Shown one piece after another: positions 978-48,113 of a stretch of DNA of 48,113 nucleotides. The position numbers and the translations under genes are program-made. The stretch is from a virus. Position 1 is the first letter of the stretch. Every line of letters starts with the position of its first letter. The stretch spans positions 1-48,113 of IMG/VR virus record IMGVR_UViG_3300028666_000046; one strand, written 5' to 3'. The notes under the pieces are model-generated. The model searched no databases and was not told the origin of the DNA. It saw nothing but the letters and a program-made list of their open reading frames with translations.

Positions 978-2174
978 ATGCTTAGGCAATTAATTGCTAC
1001 CGATAATTTTAATAGAGCAAACAGTGCTTCTTTGGGAGCAAACTGGTCAAATGGTCCTACTTCAACTGGTTCTGGAAGTGCTTTAAAAATTTTAAGTAAT
1101 GCTGCATACAACGTAGGTACTTCTGATTGTGATGCCTTTTGGTCTGGAAGTGGGACTTTTACAAACGATCACTACTCAAAAGTTAGAATAAACACTCGTG
1201 AAACTTCATTTTTTAGTGGAGTTGTTGTTAGAGGGAGTGCAACCGATCAGGTTATGGGACAATATCAAGCTGACAACGGACAATTTCAAATTGTTTGGTA
1301 TAACGGAGCAACTTACACCCAAATTGGTGGAACATTGTTGGGAACAATTAATGTAGGAGACATTCTCGCTTTAGAAGCCATAGGAACTACATTCAATTTA
1401 TACTTAAATGATGTTTTGCTTATAACTGGAACGAATGGTTCAGCTCCTTCAACTGGAAAACCTGGTATTTTGGCTTCTGGTGCTACAGATTCGACTGATT
1501 CAGTTGATGACTGGGAGGGTGGAAGTATAATTTCTCCACTTACTGAAAACATAACAGACAACTTTGATGATAACAAAATTAACTTAGTTAAGTGGACTCC
1601 AAATATTATTATGTTCCCAATAATAGAGAGGAACACTCGTCTTGAAATAATTTGTACAGCAGGAAATATTGGAGACAGTTTTTTACAATCTAATAGCAAT
1701 TTTAACTTTACAAATTCGTCATTATTTATGAGATTATTTGATGGCGGAAATGTAAATCTTGCAAGTTATAGAGGATATATTTATTTAAAAATTGATGGAA
1801 ATAATTATCTGTTTTGGAAATTAAATTCAGGTTCAGCAAAAACAATTTCAGCAGGTTATTTGAGAACCGTTGATGCTGGAAACGAGCAAGTTGTTTTTTC
1901 AGTTGCTTACGATATAAATGTTCATCGCTGGGTTAGATTTAGAGAAAGTGGTGGAACTGTTTTTTGGGATTATGCGACTGCATATATTCCTAAAAGTTCT
2001 GACTGGATAAATGCTGGAAGTGTGGCAGATCCAATTACTATTACAGCTTTAAACATAACCTTAGAGGCTTTTACTTCCAGTAATGAAGCAACTACAACAA
2101 TTTTTAAAGTTGATAATTTAAACTGTATTCCTCCTATTCCTTTGCCCACTTTTGAGCACATCCAAAATAGCTAA
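978..2174 (+). CDS. Putative receptor-binding protein with two lectin-like domains
   Basis: The 398 aa protein starts in a TAATATG junction with the fibre gene, so the two are probably co-translated. Residues 1-180 begin with a DNFNRA...LGANW pattern typical of concanavalin/LamG-like jelly-roll modules in phage tail proteins and end at a DDWEGG motif. A second, related module begins with DNFDDNKI near residue 193 and runs to the C-terminus, ending in a similar strand (KVDNL). Jelly-rolls of this type bind or hydrolyse polysaccharide; no catalytic residues can be assigned from sequence alone. Position next to the collagen-like fibre favours host-surface recognition. Confidence 0.65.
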   Translation: MLRQLIATDNFNRANSASLGANWSNGPTSTGSGSALKILSNAAYNVGTSDCDAFWSGSGTFTNDHYSKVRINTRETSFFSGVVVRGSATDQVMGQYQADNGQFQIVWYNGATYTQIGGTLLGTINVGDILALEAIGTTFNLYLNDVLLITGTNGSAPSTGKPGILASGATDSTDSVDDWEGGSIISPLTENITDNFDDNKINLVKWTPNIIMFPIIERNTRLEIICTAGNIGDSFLQSNSNFNFTNSSLFMRLFDGGNVNLASYRGYIYLKIDGNNYLFWKLNSGSAKTISAGYLRTVDAGNEQVVFSVAYDINVHRWVRFRESGGTVFWDYATAYIPKSSDWINAGSVADPITITALNITLEAFTSSNEATTTIFKVDNLNCIPPIPLPTFEHIQNS

Positions 2175-2188
2175 AACTGTGCTATCAT
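2166..2188 (+). promoter_or_regulatory. Promoter with palindromic spacer for the GT2 gene
   Basis: The spacer AATAGCTAAAACTGTGC is followed by -10 TATCAT and then ATG five bases later. The spacer contains the palindrome TAGC...GTGCTA seen in other promoters here; the -35 (ATCCAA) is weak. The transcription start would fall at the start codon. Confidence 0.6.
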
Positions 2189-2193
2189 AAATT

Positions 2194-3090
2194 ATGAAAA
2201 TTTCAGCAGTTTTAATAGGTAAAAATGAATCTGCAATGCTTCCTCGTGTATTAGGATCTCTTCAGGGAATTGATGAAATAATTTATTGTGATACTGGGTC
2301 GACTGATAATTCAGTTGAGGTTGCTCACCGATATGTAAAACAAACTTATTTTTATCAATGGGACGATTCCTTCGCTAGAGCTAGAAATGCTGCCAAAACT
2401 CATGCCACAGGAGATTGGATTTTAAGTATCGACTGCGATGAAATCCTTCATTCTTTAAAAGATGTTTATGAAGCTGCTGAAATAGCAGAAAGTAATGGAA
2501 TTTTAGGAGTTGATGTAAAAATGATTCCTGAAACTGGTCCAGGTGGATTTCTTTTTCCTAGGTTGTTTAAAAACGATCCTCGAGTTTGGTGGGAAGGAAA
2601 TGTTCATAACCATTTATCTATTGCTGGGGAAGAAATTGGAGACGTAATGATTACCTATGGATATTCACCAGCTCACGATATAGATCCAGAGCGAAGTCTA
2701 AGAATTTTAGAGAAAGATGTTCTTGTTGATAAAAAAGGTGGTCGTGAAGTTTATTATTTGGGAAGAGAATATCTTTATCGTGCAAGGTATGAAGAGTGTG
2801 TACAAGTTTTGGGAAAATATGTTCAAACATCAGTTAATTTACCTGAAAAAGCTGATGCCTTTTTGTGTATGTCGAGAGCCTATTGGCAAATGAAAGATCA
2901 TCAGTCTGCTAGGGATGCTATTGTTCAGGCTTTAATAATTAACGCTAATTTTAAAGAAGCAATTTTATTTATGGCTGATTTAGCGGGAAAAGATAGTGGA
3001 AATGAAAGATGGGAAGCTAATGCTGCTCAGTGGTTAAAGATGGCTGAAACTGCTGATAATAGAGATGTTTTGTTTGTAAGAGCTGTTTGA
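2194..3090 (+). CDS. Family 2 glycosyltransferase with TPR-like tail
   Basis: The 298 aa protein has a GT-A fold N-terminus: KNES near residues 10-13, CDTGSTDNS at 32-40, FARARNAA near 60-67, and the metal-binding acidic motif SIDCDE at 78-83. These are hallmarks of the WaaE/KdtX-like branch of GT2, which transfers sugars from nucleotide-sugars. From about residue 185 it becomes helical with YYLGREYLYRARYEECV and later ALIINANFKEA, resembling tetratricopeptide repeats. It opens the sugar island and seems to have its own leaderless promoter. Donor and acceptor are unknown. Confidence 0.8.
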   Translation: MKISAVLIGKNESAMLPRVLGSLQGIDEIIYCDTGSTDNSVEVAHRYVKQTYFYQWDDSFARARNAAKTHATGDWILSIDCDEILHSLKDVYEAAEIAESNGILGVDVKMIPETGPGGFLFPRLFKNDPRVWWEGNVHNHLSIAGEEIGDVMITYGYSPAHDIDPERSLRILEKDVLVDKKGGREVYYLGREYLYRARYEECVQVLGKYVQTSVNLPEKADAFLCMSRAYWQMKDHQSARDAIVQALIINANFKEAILFMADLAGKDSGNERWEANAAQWLKMAETADNRDVLFVRAV

Positions 3091-3115
3091 CAAATAGCAG
3101 ACTTTGTGCTAAAAA
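3087..3115 (+). promoter_or_regulatory. Consensus promoter with operator-like spacer
   Basis: TTGACA, then a 17-base spacer AATAGCAGACTTTGTGC, then -10 TAAAAA. The palindrome TAGCAGACTTTGTGCTA overlaps spacer and -10. The expected start of transcription is at the ATG at 3121. Confidence 0.75.
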
Positions 3116-3120
3116 TAATT

Positions 3121-3657
3121 ATGACTCTTTTCATAGCAACCCACAATGATGATGAAGCTCTTTGGGGTGCTTTTACTCTTCTTCGAGAAAACCCAGTCGT
3201 CTTAATAGTCACTGATTCATGGATTCAATATAACCGTGGTGAAACTGCTTGCTCAGCAAATGCTAGATGGCAAGAAACTCTAAAAGCTATGGAGACTTTA
3301 GGATGTCCAGTTATTCGAGGAGGAATTCGTGATGATATTTTGAATGAATGGCACCTGAGAAATTTACTGGAAAAATTTCATGGATTTAACACTGTTTATG
3401 CTCCAGCTATTCAAGGCGGAAATAACCAACATGATTTAGTCGGAAAAGTTTGCGATGATCTTTTTAAGGAAAAGTGTAAGCATTACACGGCCTACACAAA
3501 AGAAGAAACTTATACCAAAGGAAATATAGAAATTAAACCCAGTGAACAAGAGTTGGCTTTAAAAGATAAAGCTCTTGCTTGTTATAAATCTCAGCTTGGA
3601 AATACCAACAAAGCCTATTTTGAGGCTGTGAAAGGAAAATCAGAGTGGTTCATTTAA
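3121..3657 (+). CDS. PIG-L/LmbE-family deacetylase
   Basis: The protein (178 aa from the ATG at 3121) begins MTLFIATHNDDE; the HNDDE motif matches the zinc-binding (H)P(D)DE signature of PIG-L/LmbE N-acetylglucosamine deacetylases. A later NQHDLVG segment (about residue 104) could supply the further metal-ligand histidine. An upstream GTG at 3106 would add five residues but lies inside the promoter, so 3121 is preferred. Family members remove N-acetyl groups from GlcNAc-containing glycans or conjugates, consistent with the neighbouring transferases. It is shorter than typical members (about 220-250 aa). The end overlaps the next gene by 13 bases. Confidence 0.7.
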   Translation: MTLFIATHNDDEALWGAFTLLRENPVVLIVTDSWIQYNRGETACSANARWQETLKAMETLGCPVIRGGIRDDILNEWHLRNLLEKFHGFNTVYAPAIQGGNNQHDLVGKVCDDLFKEKCKHYTAYTKEETYTKGNIEIKPSEQELALKDKALACYKSQLGNTNKAYFEAVKGKSEWFI

Positions 3658-4343
3658 TAGTAGGTTATGGGGAAGTAGGTCAGGGACTTGATAAAGTTTT
3701 GGGCGGAAATTCTTTGGTAGTAGATCCAGATAAAGGCTTTATGGGAGTTAATCCAAAAGGAGAAGAGCCTAACGTAGTTCATATTTGTATTCCTCCAATA
3801 GAAGATTTTGACGAAGTTGTTAATAGATATAAAAAACCAGGCGTTTTAATAATTGTTCATTCCTCTGTGGCTGTTGGAACTTGTGACCGTTTGGGAGTAG
3901 TCCACTCACCTATTAGAGGAGTTCATCCTAATATGGCTGAAGGAATTCAAACTTTCGTTAAATATTTTGGTGGAAAAGATGCTGAAAAAGCTGCAAACAT
4001 TTTCAGTGAGTTAGGTTTAATAGTTAAAGTTTTTCCAGAGGCAAGAACAACTGAGGCATTAAAACTTTGGGATACTACTCAATATGGATTTTTGATTATG
4101 TTAGAGAAATACGTTCACAAATGGTGTGAAGATAATGCTATTGATTTTGATGCAATTTACACTGAAGCTAATCGAGACTATAACGAAGGGTACCGAGCTC
4201 TTGGAAGGCCTGAAGTTGTCAGACCTTATTTGAAACATTATCCAGGAAAAATTGGTGGACATTGTGTCGTTCCTAACGGAAAACTTCTCGATAACGATGT
4301 TGATTTTGATGAGATGGTAGAAGAAATAGAAAATGCTAAATAA
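3645..4343 (+). CDS. Compact UDP-sugar dehydrogenase-like protein
   Basis: The 232 aa protein starts with a Rossmann loop GYGEVG (residues 7-12), has SSVAVGT after the third strand, a helical block with KLWDTTQYGF, and near residue 204 GKIGGHCVVPN, which resembles the catalytic-Cys motif GGHC of UDP-glucose/UDP-ManNAc dehydrogenases. Normal members have about 420 residues and a C-terminal domain; that domain is absent here. The start is GTG with an AAAGGA upstream, inside the preceding gene. It may oxidise a nucleotide sugar or be a related NAD-dependent enzyme; the small size makes the exact reaction uncertain. Confidence 0.6.
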   Translation: MVHLIVGYGEVGQGLDKVLGGNSLVVDPDKGFMGVNPKGEEPNVVHICIPPIEDFDEVVNRYKKPGVLIIVHSSVAVGTCDRLGVVHSPIRGVHPNMAEGIQTFVKYFGGKDAEKAANIFSELGLIVKVFPEARTTEALKLWDTTQYGFLIMLEKYVHKWCEDNAIDFDAIYTEANRDYNEGYRALGRPEVVRPYLKHYPGKIGGHCVVPNGKLLDNDVDFDEMVEEIENAK

Positions 4344-5172
4344 AACTTTTGTTATTACTGAGTTTGGAAGCCCATTTTCTTGGACTCAAAAATATATTGA
4401 TAATGTTCAAAGATTGGGAGAGTTTGGTTGGCATTGGAAAATTTTTACTCCAAATAAATATGAATCAAAAGGTAATGTGGAAATAGTTCATACGACTGCT
4501 GAAGAATTTGCAGATTTAGTAGAAAAGAAACTAGCTATTAAACCTCAAATGTTTATTACTCCCGAAGGAGTTCCTTCCGTACACGTTACAGATTTCTATG
4601 TTTTTACGGGTAAAATCTTTGAGGATTACTTAGTTAATGTGGATTATTGGGGAATTACAAATATGGATATTGTTTACGGGAGACTTGAACATTTTTTGAC
4701 AGATAATACTTTAGAAAAATTTGATATTTGGACTGATGATGTAGATGCTTTTGGACAAGGATTAATTAATGGAATTTTTTCTCTTTGGGCAAATACAGAT
4801 AAAGTAAATAATTTATGCCTTAGAATTCCAAACTGGCAAGCAAAAATTGCTCAAGATCCATGTCCAAAATGTATGGGTATTAAAGATGCTGGACATACTC
4901 TTTATGGAACTGACGAAATAGACATGGTGCCTATAACTCAAAACGCACATCTCAAAAATCAAATTATGTTAGGATGTCCAAAATATTATCCAATGCACAG
5001 TTACGATAGACTTGAACAACACGTTCCTGATGTTAAATTAGAAATTCAAAATGATGGATCTCTCTGGGAAAAATTTGCTGATACTAATCCTCATGGAGTT
5101 CCTTTTGCAGCTCGAGAAATTGCATACTTTCATTTTATAAAAACTAAAGAATGGCCAAAATGTCTAAAATAA
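4333..5172 (+). CDS. DUF6625-type putative glycosyltransferase
   Basis: This 279 aa protein overlaps the previous gene by 11 bases. It shows the layout I associate with DUF6625: an opening strand with FVITEFGSPFSW, the segment TAEEFADLVEKKL, then KIFEDYLVNVDYWGITNMDIVYG with an acidic DIVYG core, then LEKFDIWTDD and an NGIFSLWANTDKVN block. The family sits in glycan clusters and is regarded as glycosyltransferase-like, so a role in building the same glycan as its neighbours is likely. No membrane segment is visible. The call rests on pattern memory, not on a search. Confidence 0.6.
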   Translation: MLNKTFVITEFGSPFSWTQKYIDNVQRLGEFGWHWKIFTPNKYESKGNVEIVHTTAEEFADLVEKKLAIKPQMFITPEGVPSVHVTDFYVFTGKIFEDYLVNVDYWGITNMDIVYGRLEHFLTDNTLEKFDIWTDDVDAFGQGLINGIFSLWANTDKVNNLCLRIPNWQAKIAQDPCPKCMGIKDAGHTLYGTDEIDMVPITQNAHLKNQIMLGCPKYYPMHSYDRLEQHVPDVKLEIQNDGSLWEKFADTNPHGVPFAAREIAYFHFIKTKEWPKCLK

Positions 5173-5903
5173 TTTCTTTAACTGGTAGAAATGGTTTTTT
5201 TGGGAAGACCTTAAAACCAAAACTTGAGGCAATGGGATACACTGTTTATAACAGTCTGGTTCCTGAGGCTTCTCATGCTTTTCTTTTTGGTGCAGTTTCC
5301 TCACATGAACAATTCAAGTTAAATCCAGATCAATGTTGGGAAGACACAATTTCTACTTTTATAAGGTCAGTTCAATTTTGTAGAGATCATAATATTCGTC
5401 TAGTTTATCCTTCTAGTATTACAGTTAAAACTAAGGAATCTTCTTATGCTCATTGTAAAGCTGCTTTAGAAGAAATTCAGGCTGGATATAATATTGATTC
5501 AGTGGGACTTAGAATTGTAGCTGGTTATGGTCCTAATGAATCTCACAAAGGTTATTATGCAAGTGTTTTATATAAATTTTGTAAAGATATTAAAGCAGGA
5601 ATCCAACCTGTTATTTGGGGGGATGGAAGTCAAACTAGAGATTTTATTTACCAGGATGATGCAGCTGACTGGATAATTAAATATGGATTTAATTCAAAAA
5701 ATAAGATTGAAGAAATTGGAACTGGTATTAATACAAGTTTTACTCACCTCATTGATATGATAAATAAAGTCAATGGAAGTGACATTCAGCCTGTATTTGT
5801 GGATAGACCTGCCACTTATGTTCAGAATAGTTTCTGCGATCATTCTGTGGCGTCTAGCACCTCTTTAGAAGAGGGAATTAGAAAGACTCTTGAATCACTA
5901 TGA
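5151..5903 (+). CDS. NAD-dependent nucleotide-sugar epimerase/dehydratase (extended SDR)
   Basis: The 250 aa protein has the extended SDR signature: TGRNGFFG (residues 11-18) for NAD(P) binding, PSS at 87-89 giving the catalytic Ser, and Y99-x3-K103 (YAHCK) as the catalytic pair, followed by AGYGPNE and RDFIYQDDAADW typical of GalE/RmlB/GMD relatives. It lacks part of the usual C-terminal substrate domain (typical length 310-340). An alternative ATG at 5160 starts three residues later. It overlaps the genes on both sides, so it is in the operon. Likely job: making a modified nucleotide sugar. Confidence 0.8.
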   Translation: MAKMSKIISLTGRNGFFGKTLKPKLEAMGYTVYNSLVPEASHAFLFGAVSSHEQFKLNPDQCWEDTISTFIRSVQFCRDHNIRLVYPSSITVKTKESSYAHCKAALEEIQAGYNIDSVGLRIVAGYGPNESHKGYYASVLYKFCKDIKAGIQPVIWGDGSQTRDFIYQDDAADWIIKYGFNSKNKIEEIGTGINTSFTHLIDMINKVNGSDIQPVFVDRPATYVQNSFCDHSVASSTSLEEGIRKTLESL

Positions 5904-6997
5904 TAGTAAAAGATTATTGGAATGAAAGGTATGCAGAAGGAGGAAACTCTGGGTATGGTTCTTATGGAACCCAACTTCAAAAGAAACTCGATTGGCTTTC
6001 AGCTCTTCCTATTGAAACAATAACTGAGGTTGGTTGTGGTGACTTCCACTTTGGAGAAAATCTTCTCGCAAGATATCCAGATGCTCATTATTGCGGTCTT
6101 GATATTTCTGATGTAATTATTGCTAAAAATAAAGAGTTGCATCCGACTTTTAATTTTCAAGTTTTTCAAGGACAAATTCCACCAGCTGATTTACTTATGT
6201 GTGTAGACGTTCTTTTCCATATTGTTGACGAAAATGAATACGAAGCTATGCTTGATGGACTTCAAAGTGCCAGTTGGAAATATCTTGCAGTTACAGCCTA
6301 TGAGAGAGACGAACCAGATGTAAGTCCTCACTTAAATATTAAGAAGTTTGACTATAAAAGATTTGGTGAACCTGTTATTAGAGAAGTTGTCGAAGAAGAT
6401 GGTCAACTTTATTTTTATTTATTTAAAAAACCAGAGACATTCGATTGGTCAAAAGTTTCTTGCTGCTTAAACACTAAGGAAGATATTTACCCTGAAGAAG
6501 TTTTGAATTATTTAAACAAGGTTGGCTTTGGAGAAATTTTAATAAAAACTCACTCTGATTCTCCTTATTGTAAATACGAGATGATTACTAAAGCGAAGTA
6601 CGAAACGATTTATTATCAAGATGACGATGCTATTTGTCCTATTCAAATTTTGGCTAACAACTACCAACAAGACAAGATAAATGTTTTGATGAAACCTTCC
6701 CATTTTGAATCTTATAAGGATCGAAGAATGACAATGGGGCTTGGTTGGGGTTGTTTATTTGAAAAATCGTTTTTGAATGAACTTAAAAAATATGTTGAAA
6801 AATACGGGGAAGACGATTTAATGAGAAGAGACACTGAAAAACTTTTAACTCACTTAGTTGGACGTGAGAAGCAGAACAGAATTTCAGCTCCTATCCAAGA
6901 TCTCCCAAATGCTATGGCACCTGGAAGAATTTCAATGCAACCAGAGCATTATTCCAACATGGATTTGATCGAAGAAAGGTGTAAGATTTTACTATGA
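5900..6997 (+). CDS. Methyltransferase fused to a glycosyltransferase-like domain
   Basis: The start shares an ATGA overlap with the SDR gene. Residues 1-175 form a class I SAM-dependent methyltransferase: EVGCGD at 43-48 (motif I), GLDIS at 66-70, and a DLLMCVDVLFHI strand. From about residue 185 a different domain begins, with YYQDDDAICP around 239-247, an acidic DDD resembling the metal site of GT-A transferases, and later MTMGLGWGCLFEKSFL. The protein could both methylate and transfer sugars. The fusion is well supported by one uninterrupted frame; the second domain's activity is inferred. Confidence 0.65.
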   Translation: MIVKDYWNERYAEGGNSGYGSYGTQLQKKLDWLSALPIETITEVGCGDFHFGENLLARYPDAHYCGLDISDVIIAKNKELHPTFNFQVFQGQIPPADLLMCVDVLFHIVDENEYEAMLDGLQSASWKYLAVTAYERDEPDVSPHLNIKKFDYKRFGEPVIREVVEEDGQLYFYLFKKPETFDWSKVSCCLNTKEDIYPEEVLNYLNKVGFGEILIKTHSDSPYCKYEMITKAKYETIYYQDDDAICPIQILANNYQQDKINVLMKPSHFESYKDRRMTMGLGWGCLFEKSFLNELKKYVEKYGEDDLMRRDTEKLLTHLVGREKQNRISAPIQDLPNAMAPGRISMQPEHYSNMDLIEERCKILL

Positions 6998-7699: not shown

Positions 7700-7819
7700 T
7701 TACATTTCTGCAAAGACTCTGTTATTATAAAAATAAGAGTTCAATAAGAGCCCGCAAGCCTTAAAGACCAAACCTTCGGAGGGCGACCTTCGTTAAAAAC
7801 ATCGTTAAAGGGAGGTGAA
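7700..7819 (+). promoter_or_regulatory. Promoter and structured leader before the scaffold gene
   Basis: A -10 TATTAT at 7723-7728 follows a TCTGTTA half-site of the recurring promoter palindrome; the -35 is weak. About 85 bases of leader follow. ACCTTC near 7782 can pair with GGAGGT in the Shine-Dalgarno (7811-7817), and a CGTTAAA repeat lies between, so translation may be tuned by folding. Confidence 0.4.
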
Positions 7820-10121: not shown

Positions 10122-10433
10122 TTATTTTTTACTTTGTTTGACAGTTTCTTCTCTATGGCAATTTGGACATAATACTAAAACATTTTCTCTTGAATATCCT
10201 TTATATTTGTCTATTCTATGACGATCACAGTATGTTTTGTCCCAACCACATTTCTCGCATTTTTTATTAGAAATTTTTTCTCTTCTTTTAAAGTTGACTG
10301 TATCAAACAGACCTTTACTTCGATGATGAAAAGTACAAAATCTATCATAGTATGTTTTACCTTTTTTATTTCCAGCATTTCTTCCAGGTCTATGGCAATC
10401 TGGAAATTCACAAGTTGTTCTTATTGCTCTCAT
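10122..10433 (-). CDS. HNH-type endonuclease, zinc-bound
   Basis: The 103 aa protein has CEFPDCHRPG near the N-terminus and, in the second half, CEKCGWDKTYCDRHRID followed by VLCPNCHREE, i.e. paired CxxC knuckles around a DRHRID core as in short HNH nucleases. It is transcribed against the flanking capsid genes and lies in a spacer bounded by a terminator and a promoter, as expected of a free-standing homing endonuclease. No active-site residue can be confirmed without alignment. Confidence 0.65.
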   Translation of the reverse strand: MRAIRTTCEFPDCHRPGRNAGNKKGKTYYDRFCTFHHRSKGLFDTVNFKRREKISNKKCEKCGWDKTYCDRHRIDKYKGYSRENVLVLCPNCHREETVKQSKK

Positions 10434-11219: not shown

Positions 11220-13322
11220 AGTCGTAAGCCTCGACCTGGAAGGAAGCTCCCTTTCTGAGCCAGTATAGTAAAAGTAACAACCTATAAGCGTAATTTCATC
11301 GGCAATTCCATCATTTTGTAAATTAAGTTTAGTCCAAAACAAATCCTTTTGGCGAAGATTTATATATCTAAGTAAAAGAGTCTCTCCTTGATTGTCGACT
11401 TTCATCATTCCAATTTCTTGGTTTCCCCACTCGTCATTTCCAAATCCCGAAAAAACTGGATCGGTTGAAATTCGATAGCGAGGATATTGTTCAATTCCAT
11501 TTTCTCCCATCGCAATAGCTTGAACTGTGGTTCCATTTCCAGAAAGTCCTCCAAAGACCAAAACAGCTCGGTCATATTTCTTAAATTTATCAGGAAACTT
11601 TGCATCATATTGTTTGGTTGTAATTGAAAGAGTAATAGCATTTCCACTTCCAGTTCCAGAAGCATAATCAGTTTTACCAGTAAACATTCTTACAGAATTT
11701 CCGCCATAAGCTGTAATAGCATCAGAGACTCCAAAATACATTTCCTCAATTTTGGTCGTAGGGTTTATAGCTTTTGAAAATACTGCTGGATGAAGGCCTG
11801 TCCAGTTACTCCAGGTATTGTATCTTTCATCAAATACCAAAATTGAGTTGTTGCCACTCCCAGCAGGTCCAGTCGAAATTCCAAATAAAGATAAATTATT
11901 TATGTAGTCAGAACAAATCATTCCAAAATTAGCTGGAGTGACTTGACCAACAACAGAATCAGCTTTTAATGACATGACAGAGTAACGAAGAATTGTTCCA
12001 AAGTTTGCCTCGTGTCCAAGTGAGGCTACACCTTCTTGTGACCAAAAACGGATATTATCTCCAGCAACATGGGGTGAAAGAGGAGACATTGTTCCTCGAA
12101 TAACATTGACATTTTGGATTAACATTCCACCTTTTGAATCAACTCCAACAAGTCCTACATGGTGATCTTTAAAAACTGCTAAACCATCAGAATTAGCAAC
12201 TGAAAATGCTTTTAAAGCGTTAATAGTTTGTCCATCTCCAGAGCCGTAGTCGTCCAGATCTGCTCCGTCAGCAAGTGAGAATGAGGAAGCAATATCTTGA
12301 ACATCTGGAGAAGTAAGATTTATAGCTCCAAGGCCTGCTGAAGAGAGTAAAACTTCTTTTCCAAATTCAACTGTGGTTCCAACCAATTTTCCTTGATGAA
12401 CGTCTAGTAAGTAGAAATGATAACCAAGTGTATCGTTGTCAGCTGGAACTCCAAAAGCTGTTCCTTGGTCGGCATCAGTTTTTTGATCGACATAAGTATT
12501 TACATCGGCAGCAATGCTATCCAAAAAGAATTCATCACCAGCCACATCTCCTCGATAAATTGCTCTTCTTGTAGTTCCTGTGGCTGCTGCTGGAAGAGTA
12601 AGGGTCAAATAAGTAGAAGAGCTAATCTCAGGCATGCTATCGTAAAAACCTTGACCTGTTGACTGTCCTCCATCATTTGCAGGTGAAGCTAAAGTAGTTC
12701 CAAATTCGTTTAAATCTGCATATCTATAAAAAAAAGTTCTCGTTCCTGTTCCAGAACCAGTTTTAACAACAGTTGGCCTCGTAGAAGGATCTGTAATTTC
12801 AGTAAAAACTTTCCAATTAACTCCATCAAAAATAACAATATTATCAATTGGATCTGCAAAGTAAATACAGTTTTTTCCACCTATTTTGTATTGAACCATG
12901 TTGATAAAGGCTCCAGTGTCAAAGACAGGAGAATTGCTCGAAAATGTAGGATGAGTTCCAACATAACCAGCAGGAGGAGTTCCTGTTAAAAGGCTCCAAG
13001 CATCAGTTGCAAAGTTATAGCTTTCAACTTTTCCAAGATCATTTACTCTCACAAAGAAATCGACTTCATCAGTGCCAATTTTATAAAACATTTTTTGATT
13101 TAAAATCTTTGTTGCACTTGACATTCTAGTTCCAATAATTTGAGTTCCTTGTCGTTTGGAAATAGATCCATACTGAGAATAAATTCCATTGAGAAGTTCT
13201 GCTAATTCGGTATCTTTTAAAGCTGAAGCATTAGGAAGTGAATTCCAACCATCAGAAAAACCATTACTCCCTAAACGAGAGATTGGTGGATTCTGTCTTG
13301 GTTTTTTTATTATCCATGCCAT
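11211..13322 (-). CDS. Tail nozzle-like protein (tail tubular B / hub type)
   Basis: The 703 aa protein is beta-rich with few Cys. Its first 70 residues (GFSDGWNSLPNASALKDTELAELLNG, then SISKRQGTQIIG, quoted in parts) follow the pattern of podovirus nozzle proteins such as T7 gp12: a Pro-rich start, an Asp/Glu-rich helix, and a KRQG loop. Repeated blade-like motifs suggest a beta-propeller. It follows the 240-aa adaptor gene with a one-base gap, as tail tubular A and B genes do in T7-like phages. The family call rests on order, size and pattern only. Confidence 0.55.
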   Translation of the reverse strand: MAWIIKKPRQNPPISRLGSNGFSDGWNSLPNASALKDTELAELLNGIYSQYGSISKRQGTQIIGTRMSSATKILNQKMFYKIGTDEVDFFVRVNDLGKVESYNFATDAWSLLTGTPPAGYVGTHPTFSSNSPVFDTGAFINMVQYKIGGKNCIYFADPIDNIVIFDGVNWKVFTEITDPSTRPTVVKTGSGTGTRTFFYRYADLNEFGTTLASPANDGGQSTGQGFYDSMPEISSSTYLTLTLPAAATGTTRRAIYRGDVAGDEFFLDSIAADVNTYVDQKTDADQGTAFGVPADNDTLGYHFYLLDVHQGKLVGTTVEFGKEVLLSSAGLGAINLTSPDVQDIASSFSLADGADLDDYGSGDGQTINALKAFSVANSDGLAVFKDHHVGLVGVDSKGGMLIQNVNVIRGTMSPLSPHVAGDNIRFWSQEGVASLGHEANFGTILRYSVMSLKADSVVGQVTPANFGMICSDYINNLSLFGISTGPAGSGNNSILVFDERYNTWSNWTGLHPAVFSKAINPTTKIEEMYFGVSDAITAYGGNSVRMFTGKTDYASGTGSGNAITLSITTKQYDAKFPDKFKKYDRAVLVFGGLSGNGTTVQAIAMGENGIEQYPRYRISTDPVFSGFGNDEWGNQEIGMMKVDNQGETLLLRYINLRQKDLFWTKLNLQNDGIADEITLIGCYFYYTGSERELPSRSRLTTLA

Positions 13323-15237: not shown

Positions 15238-15266
15238 ATGATAACACACACTCTGCTAAAAGTCAA
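15238..15266 (-). promoter_or_regulatory. Promoter with operator-like spacer for the 46-aa gene
   Basis: Minus strand TTGACT, spacer TTTAGCAGAGTGTGTGT (17), -10 TATCAT, then six bases to ATG. Back-to-back with the + strand -10 at 15293. Confidence 0.75.
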
Positions 15267-20429: not shown

Positions 20430-20818
20430 CATCACTAAATATTTTATACGTTGTTTATTTAATCAGTATTATTATTTATATAATAACTGTTTTTCTTGAC
20501 GTTGCTTTTGTTTTACCTTTACAAGCTAAAGAAGCTCGTATTAAAAATGGTTTAACTCTGTTAAGGAAACAACTTCTACTTAGAGGAATTGTTGGAATTT
20601 TAGTCGCTCTTGCTTCAATTTCAGCTTTAGCTTCGAGATATTTTCCAGCAAATACAGAGGTAATTAGATACATCGCTCTTTTCTTTGTTCTTGTAAGTGC
20701 TTTAGGAAGTTTAGTAAAAGCTATTATTGATTATATGATTTATCATCAACAGTATTCAGATGAGAGTATTAAGAGGCATCAAAAAATTGCTAAGTTAGAG
20801 AAAAAGTTTGACAAATAG
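20426..20818 (+). CDS. Multi-pass membrane protein, holin candidate
   Basis: 130 aa with three probable membrane segments: LYVVYLISIIIYIITVFLDV, GIVGILVALASISALASR, and IALFFVLVSALGSLVKAII, followed by a charged cytoplasmic tail. This size and topology fit class I holins but also other small phage membrane proteins. The neighbouring C39-type peptidase supports a lysis role. Confidence 0.6.
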   Translation: MTSLNILYVVYLISIIIYIITVFLDVAFVLPLQAKEARIKNGLTLLRKQLLLRGIVGILVALASISALASRYFPANTEVIRYIALFFVLVSALGSLVKAIIDYMIYHQQYSDESIKRHQKIAKLEKKFDK

Positions 20819-20836
20819 CAGAGGTTGTGTTATAAA
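20808..20836 (+). promoter_or_regulatory. Consensus promoter with operator-like spacer before the peptidase
   Basis: TTGACA, spacer AATAGCAGAGGTTGTGT (17), -10 TATAAA, eight bases to ATG. The -35 lies inside the end of the upstream gene. Confidence 0.75.
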
Positions 20837-23235: not shown

Positions 23236-23264
23236 AAGATAGCAGATACTCTGTTAGTTGTCAA
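23236..23264 (-). promoter_or_regulatory. Consensus promoter with operator-like spacer
   Basis: Minus strand TTGACA, spacer ACTAACAGAGTATCTGC (17), -10 TATCTT. Unlike most promoters of this class it does not start at an ATG but feeds the structured leader of the 63-aa gene. Its -35 overlaps the stop of the preceding gene. Confidence 0.7.
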
Positions 23265-23459: not shown

Positions 23460-23488
23460 AGTATAACAGATATTCTGCTATTGTGCAA
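23460..23488 (-). promoter_or_regulatory. Promoter with operator-like spacer
   Basis: Minus strand TTGCAC, spacer AATAGCAGAATATCTGT (17), -10 TATACT, five bases to ATG. Confidence 0.7.
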
Positions 23489-26056: not shown

Positions 26057-26254
26057 TTATTTTACTGGTGTCATCTGGTAACAAGCATGTTTAGATTCCA
26101 TAAATCCCCAAGGTTTTGTAGTTACACAAACTATCCCTGCATCTTTGAAAACATCGTCACTATTAGTTGGGAAAAGTGTGATTAAAGCTACCAATCCTAT
26201 CACTCCTACAATAACGCTTACGATAATTAAAGCAAACATTTTAAACTCACTCAT
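26057..26254 (-). CDS. Small membrane protein
   Basis: 65 aa. One strong hydrophobic segment (MFALIIVSVIVGVIGLVALI) near the N-terminus, then a short polar domain with two Cys and a DDVFKDAGIVCVTTKPWG segment. Possibly an anchored regulator or exclusion factor. The start overlaps the SSB gene's stop. Confidence 0.55.
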   Translation of the reverse strand: MSEFKMFALIIVSVIVGVIGLVALITLFPTNSDDVFKDAGIVCVTTKPWGFMESKHACYQMTPVK

Positions 26255-27203: not shown

Positions 27204-27232
27204 ATAATAGCACAAATTCTGTTAATTACAAG
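27204..27232 (-). promoter_or_regulatory. Promoter with operator-like spacer
   Basis: Minus strand weak -35 CTTGTA, spacer ATTAACAGAATTTGTGC (17), -10 TATTAT, six bases to ATG. Confidence 0.65.
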
Positions 27233-28637: not shown

Positions 28638-29198
28638 TTAAACCACCCCCCTTCCATCTACATAAACTCTTTTTTTCTTTTCAAATTGCGGAAATGGTTT
28701 GGAAAACAAAGAACCTTTTAATTGTTGACCAAACTTACTTTTCCGAGCTTTTCTTTGTTCCCGAGCTTGGTATAAGTCTTTCAGTTCAGTATTAGCAGAG
28801 TCTTTGCTAACTATATTATTCTCTACCTTATTACTCTCTACACTATCTAGTCCGTTTTCGGACATAGGGGTATGTCCGTTTTCGGACATAGGTATAGCCG
28901 AATTTGTATATAGGGGTACAAATATCTTACGTTCAATTATTTTTTTGTTCTCATCTCTAACAAGTTCTACTCGAATTAGACTTTTATTTTTAAGGTTTGA
29001 AATTGAAGTAGAGATTGTATGTTTGTTTTTTTGAATTTGGATTCCTAACCAGCTATTTGAAGCAAAGCAGTAACCTTTCATGTTAAGTAGTCCTAGAATT
29101 CTTCCGTAAACCATTTTGTCACAATCAGAAAGATCTTCTTTTCCCATTACTTGTGGTGGAATTAAACACCAACCTAGTTCTATATTTTTGTTATTCAT
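28638..29198 (-). CDS. Winged-helix replication initiator candidate
   Basis: 186 aa. Residues 1-90 form a winged helix: LSDCDKMVYGRILGLLN, then SWLGIQIQKNKHTISTSISN as recognition region, then LIRVELVRD as wing. A flexible region follows and contains two copies of PMSENG, encoded by the tandem repeat at 28850-28892, then a basic C-terminus. Phage O-type or DnaD-type initiators have this plan with iterons inside the gene. It is the first gene of a leftward unit and has an SD-masking leader. Confidence 0.6.
   Translation of the reverse strand: MNNKNIELGWCLIPPQVMGKEDLSDCDKMVYGRILGLLNMKGYCFASNSWLGIQIQKNKHTISTSISNLKNKSLIRVELVRDENKKIIERKIFVPLYTNSAIPMSENGHTPMSENGLDSVESNKVENNIVSKDSANTELKDLYQAREQRKARKSKFGQQLKGSLFSKPFPQFEKKKRVYVDGRGVV
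28850..28892. repeat. Tandem palindromic iterons inside the initiator gene
   Basis: Two 19-base copies of GTCCGTTTTCGGACATAGG begin at 28850 and 28874, a period of 24 bases. Each holds the palindrome GTCCG TTTT CGGAC. AT-rich sequence lies on both sides. As in lambda O, a repeat inside the initiator gene suggests the replication origin. Confidence 0.6.
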
Positions 29199-32067: not shown

Positions 32068-32265
32068 TTAATTTTCGTTTATAAACTTTTTAACGGCTTC
32101 CCAACTATATCTTCGATCTCCACGAGAATTTATTCTTGTTGGCTTAATGGGAAACCAATTATTTTTCTCCCATCTTTTTAAAGTTACTGGATGAACTCTA
32201 AAATAATAAGCCATCTGAATTGGAGTTAGCTCTTCTGGCATATTTATAAGGTTTGAGTAATTCAT
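32068..32265 (-). CDS. MerR/excisionase-type DNA-binding protein
   Basis: 65 aa from the ATG at 32265, which forms an ATGA overlap with the 41-aa zinc protein. TPIQMAYYFRVHPVTLKRWEKNNW is a helix-turn-helix of MerR/Xis type (helix, then P-x-T-L-x-R-W), followed by RRYSWEAVKKFI, the classic wing. A small transcription or DNA-architecture factor. A frame extension to 32286 starts at TTG and is less likely. Confidence 0.75.
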   Translation of the reverse strand: MNYSNLINMPEELTPIQMAYYFRVHPVTLKRWEKNNWFPIKPTRINSRGDRRYSWEAVKKFINEN

Positions 32266-33140: not shown

Positions 33141-33169
33141 ATATTAGCAGAGTCTTTGCTAAAAGTCAA
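33141..33169 (-). promoter_or_regulatory. Promoter with operator-like spacer
   Basis: Minus strand TTGACT, spacer TTTAGCAAAGACTCTGC (17), -10 TAATAT, six bases to ATG. Confidence 0.75.
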
Positions 33170-35186: not shown

Positions 35187-35215
35187 ATATTAGCACACAC
35201 TCTGCTATTATGCAA
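35187..35215 (-). promoter_or_regulatory. Promoter with operator-like spacer
   Basis: Minus strand TTGCAT, spacer AATAGCAGAGTGTGTGC (17), -10 TAATAT, six bases to ATG. The -35 overlaps the end of the preceding gene. Confidence 0.75.
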
Positions 35216-36512: not shown

Positions 36513-36541
36513 AGTATAGCAGGGGTACTGCTATTTGTCAA
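36513..36541 (-). promoter_or_regulatory. Main leftward promoter with full operator palindrome
   Basis: Minus strand TTGACA, spacer AATAGCAGTACCCCTGC (17), -10 TATACT. TAGCAGTACCCCTGCTA is a near-perfect palindrome. The strongest consensus match in the window; transcribes the block from 36410 leftward. Confidence 0.8.
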
Positions 36542-37590: not shown

Positions 37591-37767
37591 TCATGATTTC
37601 AACGAAGCTAAATACTCTTTACGAGTCATTTTCTTTTGTTTCTTTATTGGCTTAGTTATTGACGTTTCGTCAACACGTCCTTTTCTATGATACATGACTT
37701 GATGTGAATGATTGCAGAACATTAGCCTTGAAAGCTCTTTATCACAGTAGTCGCAATGATGTGTCAT
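37591..37767 (-). CDS. Small zinc-finger protein (58 aa)
   Basis: Starts MTHHCDYCDKELSRLMFCNH: C-x2-C...C-x-H/H gives a zinc finger; a basic C-terminal half ends REYLASLKS-like (TRKEYLASLKS). Five bases separate its ATG from -10 TATACT, with -35 TTGATT 17 bases before. A palindrome GTTGACGATACATCAAC fills the spacer and a near copy lies inside the gene, so it may regulate itself. Confidence 0.6.
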   Translation of the reverse strand: MTHHCDYCDKELSRLMFCNHSHQVMYHRKGRVDETSITKPIKKQKKMTRKEYLASLKS

Positions 37768-37778
37768 GTCTTAGTATA

Positions 37779-37801
37779 GTTGATGTATCGTCAACAATCA
37801 A
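37779..37801 (-). promoter_or_regulatory. Promoter spacer palindrome GTTGACGATACATCAAC
   Basis: The 17-base spacer of the zinc-finger promoter is a palindrome with arms GTTGA/TCAAC. A related TTGACGTTTCGTCAA occurs near 37660 within the gene. This differs from the TAGCA-type operator. Confidence 0.45.
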
Positions 37802-38225
37802 TCAATCTTTATTATTAGAAGTGTCCATATATATAGTGTTATCCTTCCATGCTTGCACGCACACGGGGGGGTGGGGGTGGCATTTTACAAACCGCCTGAG
37901 ACTCCGACCATCTTGGCTCGAGATTGAAGATCTAGTCTCATGCCGATGTATTTAACATCAATACTTGACATAGCAAACACTCTGGTATTATTATAAATGT
38001 AGATCTATTGGACGTGTACAGCAATAGATTTAGCAATAACAGTAGTTATGTTTGTCTGAAGTGCACCTAATAACAAACCTCTTGACACACTGTGAGCGAA
38101 AAACAATTAAGATTCTGGATAGAAGAAAGGAAAGAACTGGAGGCCTATAACCAAAGGAACTGACCGATTAACTTGAAGGGATCTTTTTTGCTATCTATGG
38201 ACCTTAAAAGAATTATATAAAGTTC
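37802..38225. other. Long intergenic region with a promoter and possible small RNA
   Basis: No credible gene. It contains a G-rich run (37865-37880), a promoter-like TTGACA at 37965-37970 with spacer TAGCAAACACTCTGGTA and TTATTA/TATTAT, a hairpin ATCTATTG/CAATAGAT (38003-38029), a small hairpin ATAAC/GTTAT (38036-38049), and a T-run ATCTTTTTTG at 38181-38190 without a clear terminator stem. A transcript from about 38000 to 38190 is possible. The region could also hold a packaging or replication site. Confidence 0.4.
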
Positions 38226-38254
38226 TTGACTCTTAACAGAATGTGTGCTAATAT
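38226..38254 (+). promoter_or_regulatory. Promoter with operator-like spacer
   Basis: TTGACT, spacer CTTAACAGAATGTGTGC (17), -10 TAATAT, six bases to the ATG at 38261. Confidence 0.75.
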
Positions 38255-39463: not shown

Positions 39464-39492
39464 TTGATTATTAACAGAAACTTTGTTAGTAT
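39464..39492 (+). promoter_or_regulatory. Promoter with operator-like spacer
   Basis: TTGATT, spacer ATTAACAGAAACTTTGT (17), -10 TAGTAT, six bases to the ATG at 39499. Confidence 0.7.
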
Positions 39493-39498
39493 TTATTC

Positions 39499-40980
39499 AT
39501 GAATAGGATAGTCGCTGTCATCCCCACTTATCACAGAGCTCACTTACTCCCAGCCTTTATAAAGAATCATAATGAAAATTCAACGGAGTCGACTCTCTTT
39601 TTTGTAATTCATCCCAAAGATAAGGAATCGAGAAAAGTTCTTACTTCCCTTAAACAGAATTATTTACTTTGTGAGGGGGAATATGTTGAGTGTATAAATA
39701 CTGGTTTTAAATTTACCCAGGAACCTTTTGTTTTGTGTGCAGCTGATGATGTTGTTTTTACTCCAGGTTGGGATAAAGCTATTTTAGAAATGGCTGATAA
39801 TAATAGAGACAAACATATTTTTGGCGGAGTTGACGAGTGGCAAATATCTTTAACTCAAAAGCATATCAGTCACCCAGTCGTTAGAAGAACTCACTTTTCA
39901 GATCCTCTTTATAATCCGCTTTATATTCATTACATGTGCGATATTGAATTCGAGCAGCGAGGATTCCTTGAAGGGAGTGTAATGATTACACCCCGAGTTT
40001 TAATAGAGCATCCACATACAGTCACGGCACATTTAGATAAGGAAGCCTGGGACGAAACTTATAAAAAATCCTTCTCAAAAATTAAACTTGACGAGTCTTT
40101 GTATCATAGAAGAAAAGGAGAATTTGAAGTTTGGGATTTCACTGAATTAAACGGAGGTCGAGTAGTTCCAACTAAATTGAATCCTATTTATAATAAGACT
40201 TTGGTTTCGATAGTTATTCCTTCTTACAGAGATTATAAGAATCTTAAAAATTGTTTGGCTTCAGTTGTTAATAATACTTTTTATAGATATGAAATTATTG
40301 TTATTGATGACGGCCCAGAAGGTGAAGTCTTGGAGCCTTGGAATATTGTTAATAAGAAATTGTTTTTAGATTCGATTGAACTTGAGGATAAGTCTTGCAC
40401 GTTTAAAGTCGTTCACAATAAAAAACAAGAATGGGTGAATCACAATTGGAATGTTGGAGCTGAAATGGCAACAGGAGATTATGTAGCTTTCTTAAATTCA
40501 GATATAACTCTTTCAAAAGATTGGGACAAATATTTGGTGTCAGCTCTCGAGCATCCACAGCATCCTTTTACAGTTGCATGTCCTTACGAGACTAATATAA
40601 ATACACCAGTTCCTTTTACCCTCGATCCTTTAATTTTAAAGTATATTCCTAATATGATAAAAGGACCTTGCTTTATGATGAGGAAATCTGATGTGCCATT
40701 TATATTCCCAATTCCAAAACAAATAAAACATTGGTGCGGAGACAATTGGATTTCTGATAAATCTGAGTCGATGAATGGAACTGTTTTTGCAAAGAAGGCT
40801 GTTATAAATCATTTAATTTCTCAATCGAGCAACACCTTGAAGCCTTCAGTTTTACAGAATCGAACTTACAAGGATATTATCGAATACGAAAAGTTAAGTG
40901 GAAACAAACTTAACTTTATTAAGAGCCGTTTCCCCGAGGTGGTAAAAGCCTACTATTGGGTTGATGACCATGAATCTTAA
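39499..40980 (+). CDS. Two-domain GT2-type glycosyltransferase
   Basis: 493 aa. Domain 1 (1-230) is GT-A-like, with VAVIPTYHRAHLL and CAADDVVFTPGW, the acidic ADDV being the metal site. Domain 2 (about 235-490) is a second GT2 core: VSIVIPSYRDYKNLKNCLAS, IIVIDDGPEG, WNVGAEMATGDYVAFLNSDI with the SDI metal motif. Two catalytic modules in one chain suggest a polymerase or two-sugar transfer. Its last 62 bases overlap the convergent gene at 40919. Confidence 0.8.
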   Translation: MNRIVAVIPTYHRAHLLPAFIKNHNENSTESTLFFVIHPKDKESRKVLTSLKQNYLLCEGEYVECINTGFKFTQEPFVLCAADDVVFTPGWDKAILEMADNNRDKHIFGGVDEWQISLTQKHISHPVVRRTHFSDPLYNPLYIHYMCDIEFEQRGFLEGSVMITPRVLIEHPHTVTAHLDKEAWDETYKKSFSKIKLDESLYHRRKGEFEVWDFTELNGGRVVPTKLNPIYNKTLVSIVIPSYRDYKNLKNCLASVVNNTFYRYEIIVIDDGPEGEVLEPWNIVNKKLFLDSIELEDKSCTFKVVHNKKQEWVNHNWNVGAEMATGDYVAFLNSDITLSKDWDKYLVSALEHPQHPFTVACPYETNINTPVPFTLDPLILKYIPNMIKGPCFMMRKSDVPFIFPIPKQIKHWCGDNWISDKSESMNGTVFAKKAVINHLISQSSNTLKPSVLQNRTYKDIIEYEKLSGNKLNFIKSRFPEVVKAYYWVDDHES

Positions 40981-41539
40981 ATTCTTTACTTGTATCGAAA
41001 TTGTCGTCAAACATCCCCACTTTAATTCCAAGTTTCCATACAGCGTAATTTACACTTAATTGATCTCGTTTTGAATACCTACAATTTTGGGCCCACCAGA
41101 ATTCGTTAAACTCTTGGATGCCTACAGTATTTTTCCTAAGGATTACTCCAGTTTCAAATAGTCCGTTGTGGTGTGGATACTTGTCCATTAAATAAGTATT
41201 TACTTGTTCTTGAATTAAAGGTCTATTAGTATCACGTCCTCCAGAAATAACTGCGATAGCTTCGTCATAAGCACAGTCTCGGAATCGGTGTTTCATAAAA
41301 ACTATATCGCCTCGATCTTTATATTTATTTAAAATCTCCTCAGGGCTTACAAGAAGTTCTATATCAGCATCCATCCACAAACTCCACTCTTCACGAACAA
41401 AAAGGTGTGAAAGAATTTTGACCATGCGGGCGTTTCTTGTTGGATCTTTGAAGAGGTCTACGTCTTTATCGGTGAATATTCTTTCCTGGTTTTGTGGAAC
41501 ATCATATCCTTCGGATAAAAACGAATAAGTCTTAATCAT
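40919..41539 (-). CDS. DUF616/TOD1-like glycosyltransferase
   Basis: 206 aa. KTYSFLSEGYD..., NARMVKILSHLFV, WSLWMDADIELLVSP, FMKHRFRDCAYDEA and HNGLFETGVILRKNT match the DUF616 (TOD1/MUCI70) layout, with DAD as metal motif and the H-R-x-C-x-Y-x-E signature. Found with bacterial and plant glycan genes. The last 20 residues are encoded opposite the end of the GT2 gene. Operon with the 62-aa gene upstream (ATGA overlap). Confidence 0.75.
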   Translation of the reverse strand: MIKTYSFLSEGYDVPQNQERIFTDKDVDLFKDPTRNARMVKILSHLFVREEWSLWMDADIELLVSPEEILNKYKDRGDIVFMKHRFRDCAYDEAIAVISGGRDTNRPLIQEQVNTYLMDKYPHHNGLFETGVILRKNTVGIQEFNEFWWAQNCRYSKRDQLSVNYAVWKLGIKVGMFDDNFDTSKEFKIHGHQPNSRLLPPRGNGS

Positions 41540-41724
41540 ACTTTCTTTAATACTGGCATCCCAGGCCTAGTTATTATTACTTTATACCCAACTGGCATTT
41601 CACATGAGTTCTCTTCTTGGGTTCTTTTAAAGTAGAAATTTATCCGTGTAGTTTTGCCCCTTCCCCAGCTAATCTCTTTAGAGTGCAAGTACCATATTTG
41701 GCCTTGATCTGTTGTGAATTTCAT
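41536..41724 (-). CDS. Hypothetical protein (62 aa)
   Basis: Starts MKFTTDQGQIWYLHSKEISW, beta-rich with KTTRINFYFKR and ends ITRPGMPVLKKV. Small phage proteins of this type occur in tail-assembly or sugar clusters, but I recognise no family. Leaderless from the promoter at 41731. Confidence 0.55.
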   Translation of the reverse strand: MKFTTDQGQIWYLHSKEISWGRGKTTRINFYFKRTQEENSCEMPVGYKVIITRPGMPVLKKV

Positions 41725-41730
41725 AGCCCT

Positions 41731-41759
41731 ATGATAGCATAACTTCAGCTATTATGACA
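41731..41759 (-). promoter_or_regulatory. Promoter with operator-like spacer, divergent to terminase
   Basis: Minus strand -35 TGTCAT, 17-base spacer, -10 TATCAT, six bases to ATG at 41724. The palindrome TAGCATAACTTCAGCTA (41735-41751) ends three bases before the terminase ATG, so a bound repressor could also affect that gene. Confidence 0.55.

Positions 41760-46893: not shown

Positions 46894-48113
<1,220 letters not shown>

Follow-up and report, generated by a model that had tools for sequence, protein, structure and literature searches.

A palindromic promoter-spacer element repeated across a 48-kb phage genome and its putative role as the operator of one regulator

A 17 bp palindrome, TARCASA-N3-TSTGYTA, occurs at 14 high-scoring places in the 48-kb genome of an uncultured phage, and 13 of the 14 sit in promoters, on both strands. 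The palindrome is likely to be an operator, read by one dimeric regulator, most likely a repressor, which would control some 13–14 promoters as a single regulon. The window is an entire IMG/VR virus record (48,113 bp, GC content 36%). Among its gene products are an SU10-like capsid and portal, a terminase, RecA, a DnaB-like helicase, a ResIII helicase, NinG, a PDDEXK nuclease and several sugar-modification enzymes. Because the two ends of the record (positions 1–219 and 47895–48113, both within a collagen-like GXX repeat gene) are 97.7% identical, we take the genome to be near complete, cut in this gene, and probably either circular or circularly permuted.

The palindrome and its distribution

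Exact matches to TARCA-N7-TGYTA number 12 in the window, against a mean of 0.35 and a maximum of 2 in 100 dinucleotide-preserving shuffles. Only this spacing is enriched, the same half-sites occurring at most twice each at other spacers (0–19 nt), and in an unbiased dyad search of non-coding DNA TAGC-N9-GCTA ranks first. A palindromic weight matrix returns 14 sites of at least 15.8 bits (every palindrome in Table 1 other than those at 41735 and 7708) and then a gap to 11.8 bits (41735) and 11.6 bits (7708); this matrix was trained on 12 of its 14 sites and serves for listing, the independent test being the exact-match spacer count together with the dyad search. A loose 17-mer pattern with 3 mismatches gives 41 matches where 28.6 are expected by chance, only a modest excess, and we therefore rest the claim on the strict form. 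Thirteen of the 14 palindromes lie mainly in non-coding DNA, which by our gene list makes up 7% of the genome (binomial p ~1e-14). At the level of sequence, one conserved site recurs beyond chance in many promoters of one phage, as in a phage master-regulator regulon.

The original prediction had described a family of promoters with a conserved palindrome in the spacer, naming thirteen main sites and two partial ones. All 13 main sites are present where they were predicted, on both strands, although the one at 2168 lacks a good -35 and the one at 41735 is weak, and the site at 28793, which could lie near an origin, had been missed. As for the partial members, that placed at 7700 corresponds to the weak palindrome at 7708, and that placed at 37965 to the high-scoring palindrome at 37971.

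Table 1. Palindromes, associated promoters and members of the second promoter class in the window.
Feature	Position	Strand	Promoter elements, adjoining genes and remarks
Operator-like palindrome	2168–2184	+	-10 TATCAT 2183–2188; -35 weak; ATG 2194, glycosyltransferase-like gene
Promoter with palindrome 3095–3111	3087–3115	+	-35 TTGACA 3087–3092; leaderless ATG 3121, PIG-L-like deacetylase, then sugar-modification genes
Weak palindrome	7708–7724	+	Precedes gene 7820
Palindrome	15242–15258	-	TTGACT...TATCAT; leaderless ATG 15231
Palindrome	20816–20832	+	TTGACA...TATAAA; ATG 20845, C39-like peptidase
Palindrome	23240–23256	-	TTGACA...TATCTT; next gene start 23128
Palindrome	23464–23480	-	TTGCAC...TATACT; leaderless ATG 23454
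Palindrome	27208–27224	-	TTGTAA...TATTAT; leaderless ATG 27197
Palindrome	28793–28809	.	Inside HTH_36 replication-initiator-like gene 28638–29198; identical to 33145 site; no convincing promoter
Palindrome	33145–33161	-	TTGACT...TAATAT; leaderless ATG 33134; downstream genes include 32068 and helicase 30533
Palindrome	35191–35207	-	TTGCAT...TAATAT; leaderless ATG 35180; downstream genes include PDDEXK nuclease 33602
Palindrome	36517–36533	-	TTGACA...TATACT; next genes 36410/36318
Palindrome	37971–37987	+	Straight after TTGACA, TATTAT; register shifted two bases relative to -35; no clear gene adjoining
Palindrome	38234–38250	+	TTGACT...TAATAT; leaderless ATG 38261
Palindrome	39472–39488	+	TTGATT...TAGTAT; leaderless ATG 39499, glycosyltransferase
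Weak palindrome	41735–41751	-	Divergent region between 41724 (leaderless) and terL 41754; orthologous site kept in L238
Second class, TATAATTAAAAT(AT)ATG	14060, 15070, 22935	-	
Second class, TATAATTAAAAT(AT)ATG	15293, 18422, 19972, 29860, 37042, 44470, 46511	+	

Promoter architecture and a second promoter class

Read in the direction of the promoter, the sites have the consensus TTGACA-nn-TARCASAnnnTnTGYTA-nnnT-(5 to 6 nt)-ATG. The -35 box usually ends two bases upstream of the palindrome, the -10 box begins with the final TA of the palindrome, and the right half doubles as an extended -10 (TGY; TnTGYTA). Spacers that hold the palindrome are mostly 17 bp, and the register to the -10 and the ATG is constant in most sites. 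The positions of the left half carry 1.31, 1.31, 1.13, 2.07, 0.83, 1.29 and 1.02 bits, the right half carries about as much, and the three central bases are nearly free. As the left half has no core-promoter role, something else must hold its sequence, for which a symmetric dimer is the simple reading, and its conservation to the same degree as the right half argues for a dimer-binding operator.

The ATG follows the -10 hexamer by 5–6 nt in 11 of the 14 promoter-borne sites analysed (at 37971 this ATG has no clear gene), which should place the start of transcription at or next to the ATG, and the mRNAs from most palindrome promoters should therefore be leaderless. Genes internal to the operons often carry Shine-Dalgarno-like sequences. 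The most likely mechanism is occlusion: the bound regulator would cover the 17 bp spacer together with the start of the -10, so that RNA polymerase would be blocked, and with the regulator absent the right half (TnTGYTA) would serve as an extended -10 and give strong firing, with leaderless mRNAs that could be translated at once. The sequence itself establishes that the site family exists, keeps its register, is symmetric and is confined to one lineage; we infer dimer binding, repression, a single regulator and early timing, and it is the geometry that favours repression over activation. One regulator could probably switch many operons together in this way, and an operator half that doubles as an extended -10 would be a compact design, one that other phages with tight genomes may also use.

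A second leaderless class, TATAATTAAAATATATG and variants (Table 1), precedes about 10 other genes, mostly structural (the portal, large tail-region genes and others), and has neither the palindrome nor a clear -35. These promoters are possibly late ones that need another factor. Behind the palindrome class lie operons with genes for replication and recombination, runs of small ORFs and sugar-modification genes; gene content, the sole basis for such timing, would make the palindrome class early and the TATAATTAAAATATATG class late. The HNH genes at 10433 (minus strand) and 10746 (plus strand) have leaderless promoters that lack the TARCA half and, since the second class lacks the palindrome as well, the palindrome is not general to the promoters of this phage. 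The original view that it switches many tiny operons holds in part, although sugar-modification genes and the operons of RecA, helicase and nuclease also lie behind such promoters. In line downstream of the 27208 promoter, for example, are a conserved 229-aa gene at 26251, gene 24904, RecA and NinG, among others.

Candidate regulators and alternative explanations

The proposal of an operator for one phage-wide regulator is strengthened by the fixed register, the equal half-sites and the presence of the family only here among the records examined, but no regulator was found among the proteins scanned. With Pfam and PHROGs none of these is cI-, LexA- or XRE-like, and many small orphans remain; the regulator could come from the phage itself, as a small divergent protein, or could be a protein of the host or of a resident prophage. 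This, together with one perfect site inside a gene and the lack of the family in nearly complete relatives, we count against the single-regulon reading. The products of 32068, 37591 and 24904 had been suggested as candidates, and 37591 stays possible. It encodes a 58-aa Zn-ribbon-like protein (37591–37767) and is interesting, though unproven, because the spacer of its own leaderless promoter is filled by a different 17 bp palindrome, GTTGACGATACATCAAC, at 37779–37795, with a near copy inside the gene at about 37657–37675. The case for 24904 is weakened by its conservation (35–45%) in relatives without the motif, and its AlphaFold model (pLDDT 73) has no significant match in the PDB.

MerR-family regulators bind palindromes in the promoter spacer, and MerR promoters have spacers of 19–20 bp. 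The palindrome could accordingly be an activator site at which a phage-encoded early or middle regulator recruits or reshapes polymerase in the MerR style, and the window does encode a MerR/BldC-like wHTH protein, at 32068, which has a PHROG match and a weak PDB match to BldC (closest chain 6amk). We find this quite improbable, as the spacers, mostly of 17 bp, are already optimal and come with good -35 and extended -10 boxes, and the target form of these proteins, a direct repeat for BldC or a 19–20 bp spacer for MerR, is not what is seen here. BldC binds direct repeats as cooperative multimers, not palindromes (PMC5859096). No exact site is present in four phages that encode relatives of 32068, among them G367 with a 52% identical protein, nor in promoters of the host relatives, and 32068 is an unlikely regulator of these sites.

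A different source of control would be a host regulator or the repressor of a resident prophage, with phage promoters wired to host physiology. For this speak the near-complete genome in which no phage repressor is recognised, the TARCA-N7-TGYTA promoters of two records with no clear kinship to the window phage (L112, with three sites, and L386, with two in promoters), and the half-site TTAGCA[GC], which recurs in CIRCE-type elements of host genomes (lon and hsp20 of Microgenomatia). Patescibacteria genomes, however, hold only 1–3 matches each, several of them in coding DNA, and a common host operator should form a family in the relatives of the phage too, which it does not; we consider this explanation rather unlikely. 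Host LexA and HrcA do not fit, the one by its motif and the other by its spacing. About 28 lexA-like loci of Patescibacteria lack an upstream TARCA-N7-TGYTA, and many have instead repeats of the GTTCG/GAAC type, which Patescibacteria LexA boxes resemble. HrcA needs the CIRCE spacing TTAGCACTC-N9-GAGTGCTAA (TAGCA-N15-TGCTA), of which the window has none and which is present in host lon promoters. A pattern scan for such promoters across whole genomes turned up many lon promoters of Patescibacteria, but in a lon set picked independently of the motif it is the CIRCE spacing that is conserved, and the N7 match, present in a handful of 30, is incidental. We likewise hold it unlikely that a host regulator reads one operator, joined to a leaderless extended -10, that governs the greater part of the non-structural genes of a virus of ultra-small Patescibacteria, such that host state and not a phage repressor would time the opening of the phage genes.

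It could be argued that there is no regulator at all, and that a strong promoter cassette was recently copied or the polymerase structurally prefers this spacer. The right half is indeed an extended -10 (TRTGn), and TTGACAAATAGCAG or TTGACTTTTAGCA is common to some sites; but the flanks and the three central bases vary while both half-sites persist, and the same phage has promoters without the left half. Cassette copying is disfavoured because copies would not be expected to differ at the central bases alone, and we hold this explanation to be very improbable.

Relatives, host and comparison with known systems

The putative operator family is unique to this phage among the records examined, much as repressor sites differ between immunity groups. 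Three relatives by TerL, G325 (50.1 kb), G326 (48.2 kb) and G327 (45.6 kb), have much of the gene set in common at about 25–67% identity and carry 0–1 exact sites each. The family was sought in MCP, TerL, helicase and RecA relatives and is absent except for single sites; DnaB relatives gave nothing useful. Two pattern scans of IMG/VR found no other phage with more than 3 sites, most matches being single promoters, several of them common to related phages. In L238, a fragment whose TerL is 74% identical, the orthologous leaderless promoter next to terL still has TAGCAGGTAGTCTGTTA, in which the halves are kept and the centre has changed; G325 and G015 each contain a single leaderless promoter with a palindrome-type site. 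Absence from related phages and equal frequency in coding DNA had been named at the outset as observations that would refute the idea; the family is absent from relatives, although three have single sites, and it is not equally frequent in coding DNA. Other repeated spacer words are hinted at in the relatives (TTGACAAATTAGAC in G327, CTRACGATTTGYTATATT in G325), too few to prove.

Our best reading, a lineage-specific phage master-regulator regulon, would be comparable to SPbeta/MrpR. SPBRE, a 15 bp conserved element in about ten promoter regions of a Bacillus subtilis prophage, is the target of the master repressor MrpR and was recognised by in silico search long before that repressor was found (PMC10516654). 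Both systems thus have a repeated promoter element found in silico, but SPbeta is a prophage with a known repressor and recombinase, whereas no integrase (by Pfam and PHROGs among the proteins scanned) or repressor is recognisable in the window phage, whose operator is locked in promoter register and most of whose genes are leaderless. Cluster A mycobacteriophages (L5/Bxb1) have many operator or stoperator sites per genome for one immunity repressor, with a consensus that diverges between related phages; their stoperators, to which the repressor binds as a monomer, are asymmetric, lie for the most part outside promoters and act by blocking elongation (PMC6550527, PMC9283540). The many sites per genome and, as it seems, the divergence between relatives are found here too, but the site in the window phage is a palindrome and, almost without exception, part of a promoter.

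Lambda-type operators are 17 bp palindromes, few in number and clustered at two promoters. The window palindrome resembles them in length, in its TA-rich ends and in half-sites about one helical turn apart, and differs in its roughly 14 dispersed single sites and in the lack of a cI/Cro-like protein among the proteins scanned. HrcA/CIRCE at Microgenomatia lon and hsp20 has the TTAGCA[GC] half-site, the TTGACA promoter and often the leaderless start in common with it, but with half-sites N15 apart rather than N7, and the CIRCE spacing occurs in no phage site. As judged from sequence, the window would belong to the functional class of multi-operator phage regulons (the SPbeta/MrpR, P1 C1 and L5 type), and we assign it to no named family, given that no regulator was recognised among the proteins scanned.

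The annotated phage collection holds no near relative of the window, and the collections searched may omit records very near it. One gene, 32068, suggests that the host belongs to the Microgenomatia (Patescibacteria). Relatives of its 65-aa BldC-like product, at up to about 50% identity, occur in 62 of 287 Patescibacteria genomes and in no annotated phage or plasmid. A 50-genome set included 16 genomes chosen because a lon or hsp20 promoter had matched, most of them bearing the names of Microgenomatia lineages (Levybacteria, Roizmanbacteria, Woesebacteria); relatives occur in 14 of these 16, in 1 of the 14 other Patescibacteria and in none of the 20 genomes from other phyla. Searches of the same 287 genomes gave one weak match with TerL and none with 37591. 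To our knowledge, next to nothing has been described of how transcription is controlled in phages of Patescibacteria, and the genome offers a regulon map (14 predicted operators, two promoter classes, leaderless starts) as well as a DNA bait for the regulator.

Several further observations were made along the way. The window has a surface-sugar module (2194–6997, 39499–40980 and 40919–41539) with several glycosyltransferases, an epimerase, a PIG-L-like deacetylase and a methyltransferase, partly behind palindrome promoters. A conserved 62-aa protein (41536–41724), divergent from terL and ending in a GMPVLKK-type motif, has relatives in L238, L241, L273 and L277. Promoters of the TTGAC-TARCA-N7-TGYTA type lie at 1940, 2350 and 3463 in L112 and at 12406 and 13774 in L386. 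Patescibacteria LexA-like genes (L350–L378) have several types of GTTCG/GAAC-type repeats in their promoter regions, often in the spacer. In L447–L470 (Patescibacteria lon promoters) and L158, lon promoters of Microgenomatia-type genomes carry a CIRCE-like TTAGCASTC-N9-GASTGCTAA across the -35 and -10, often with a leaderless start, as does one hsp20 gene. A highly conserved BldC/MerR-like HTH protein of 65–120 aa (LTVREVAELLRVSPLTIKRWGKRGKLPAIRINSRGDRRY; L417–L446) is present in roughly one in five of the Patescibacteria genomes sampled.
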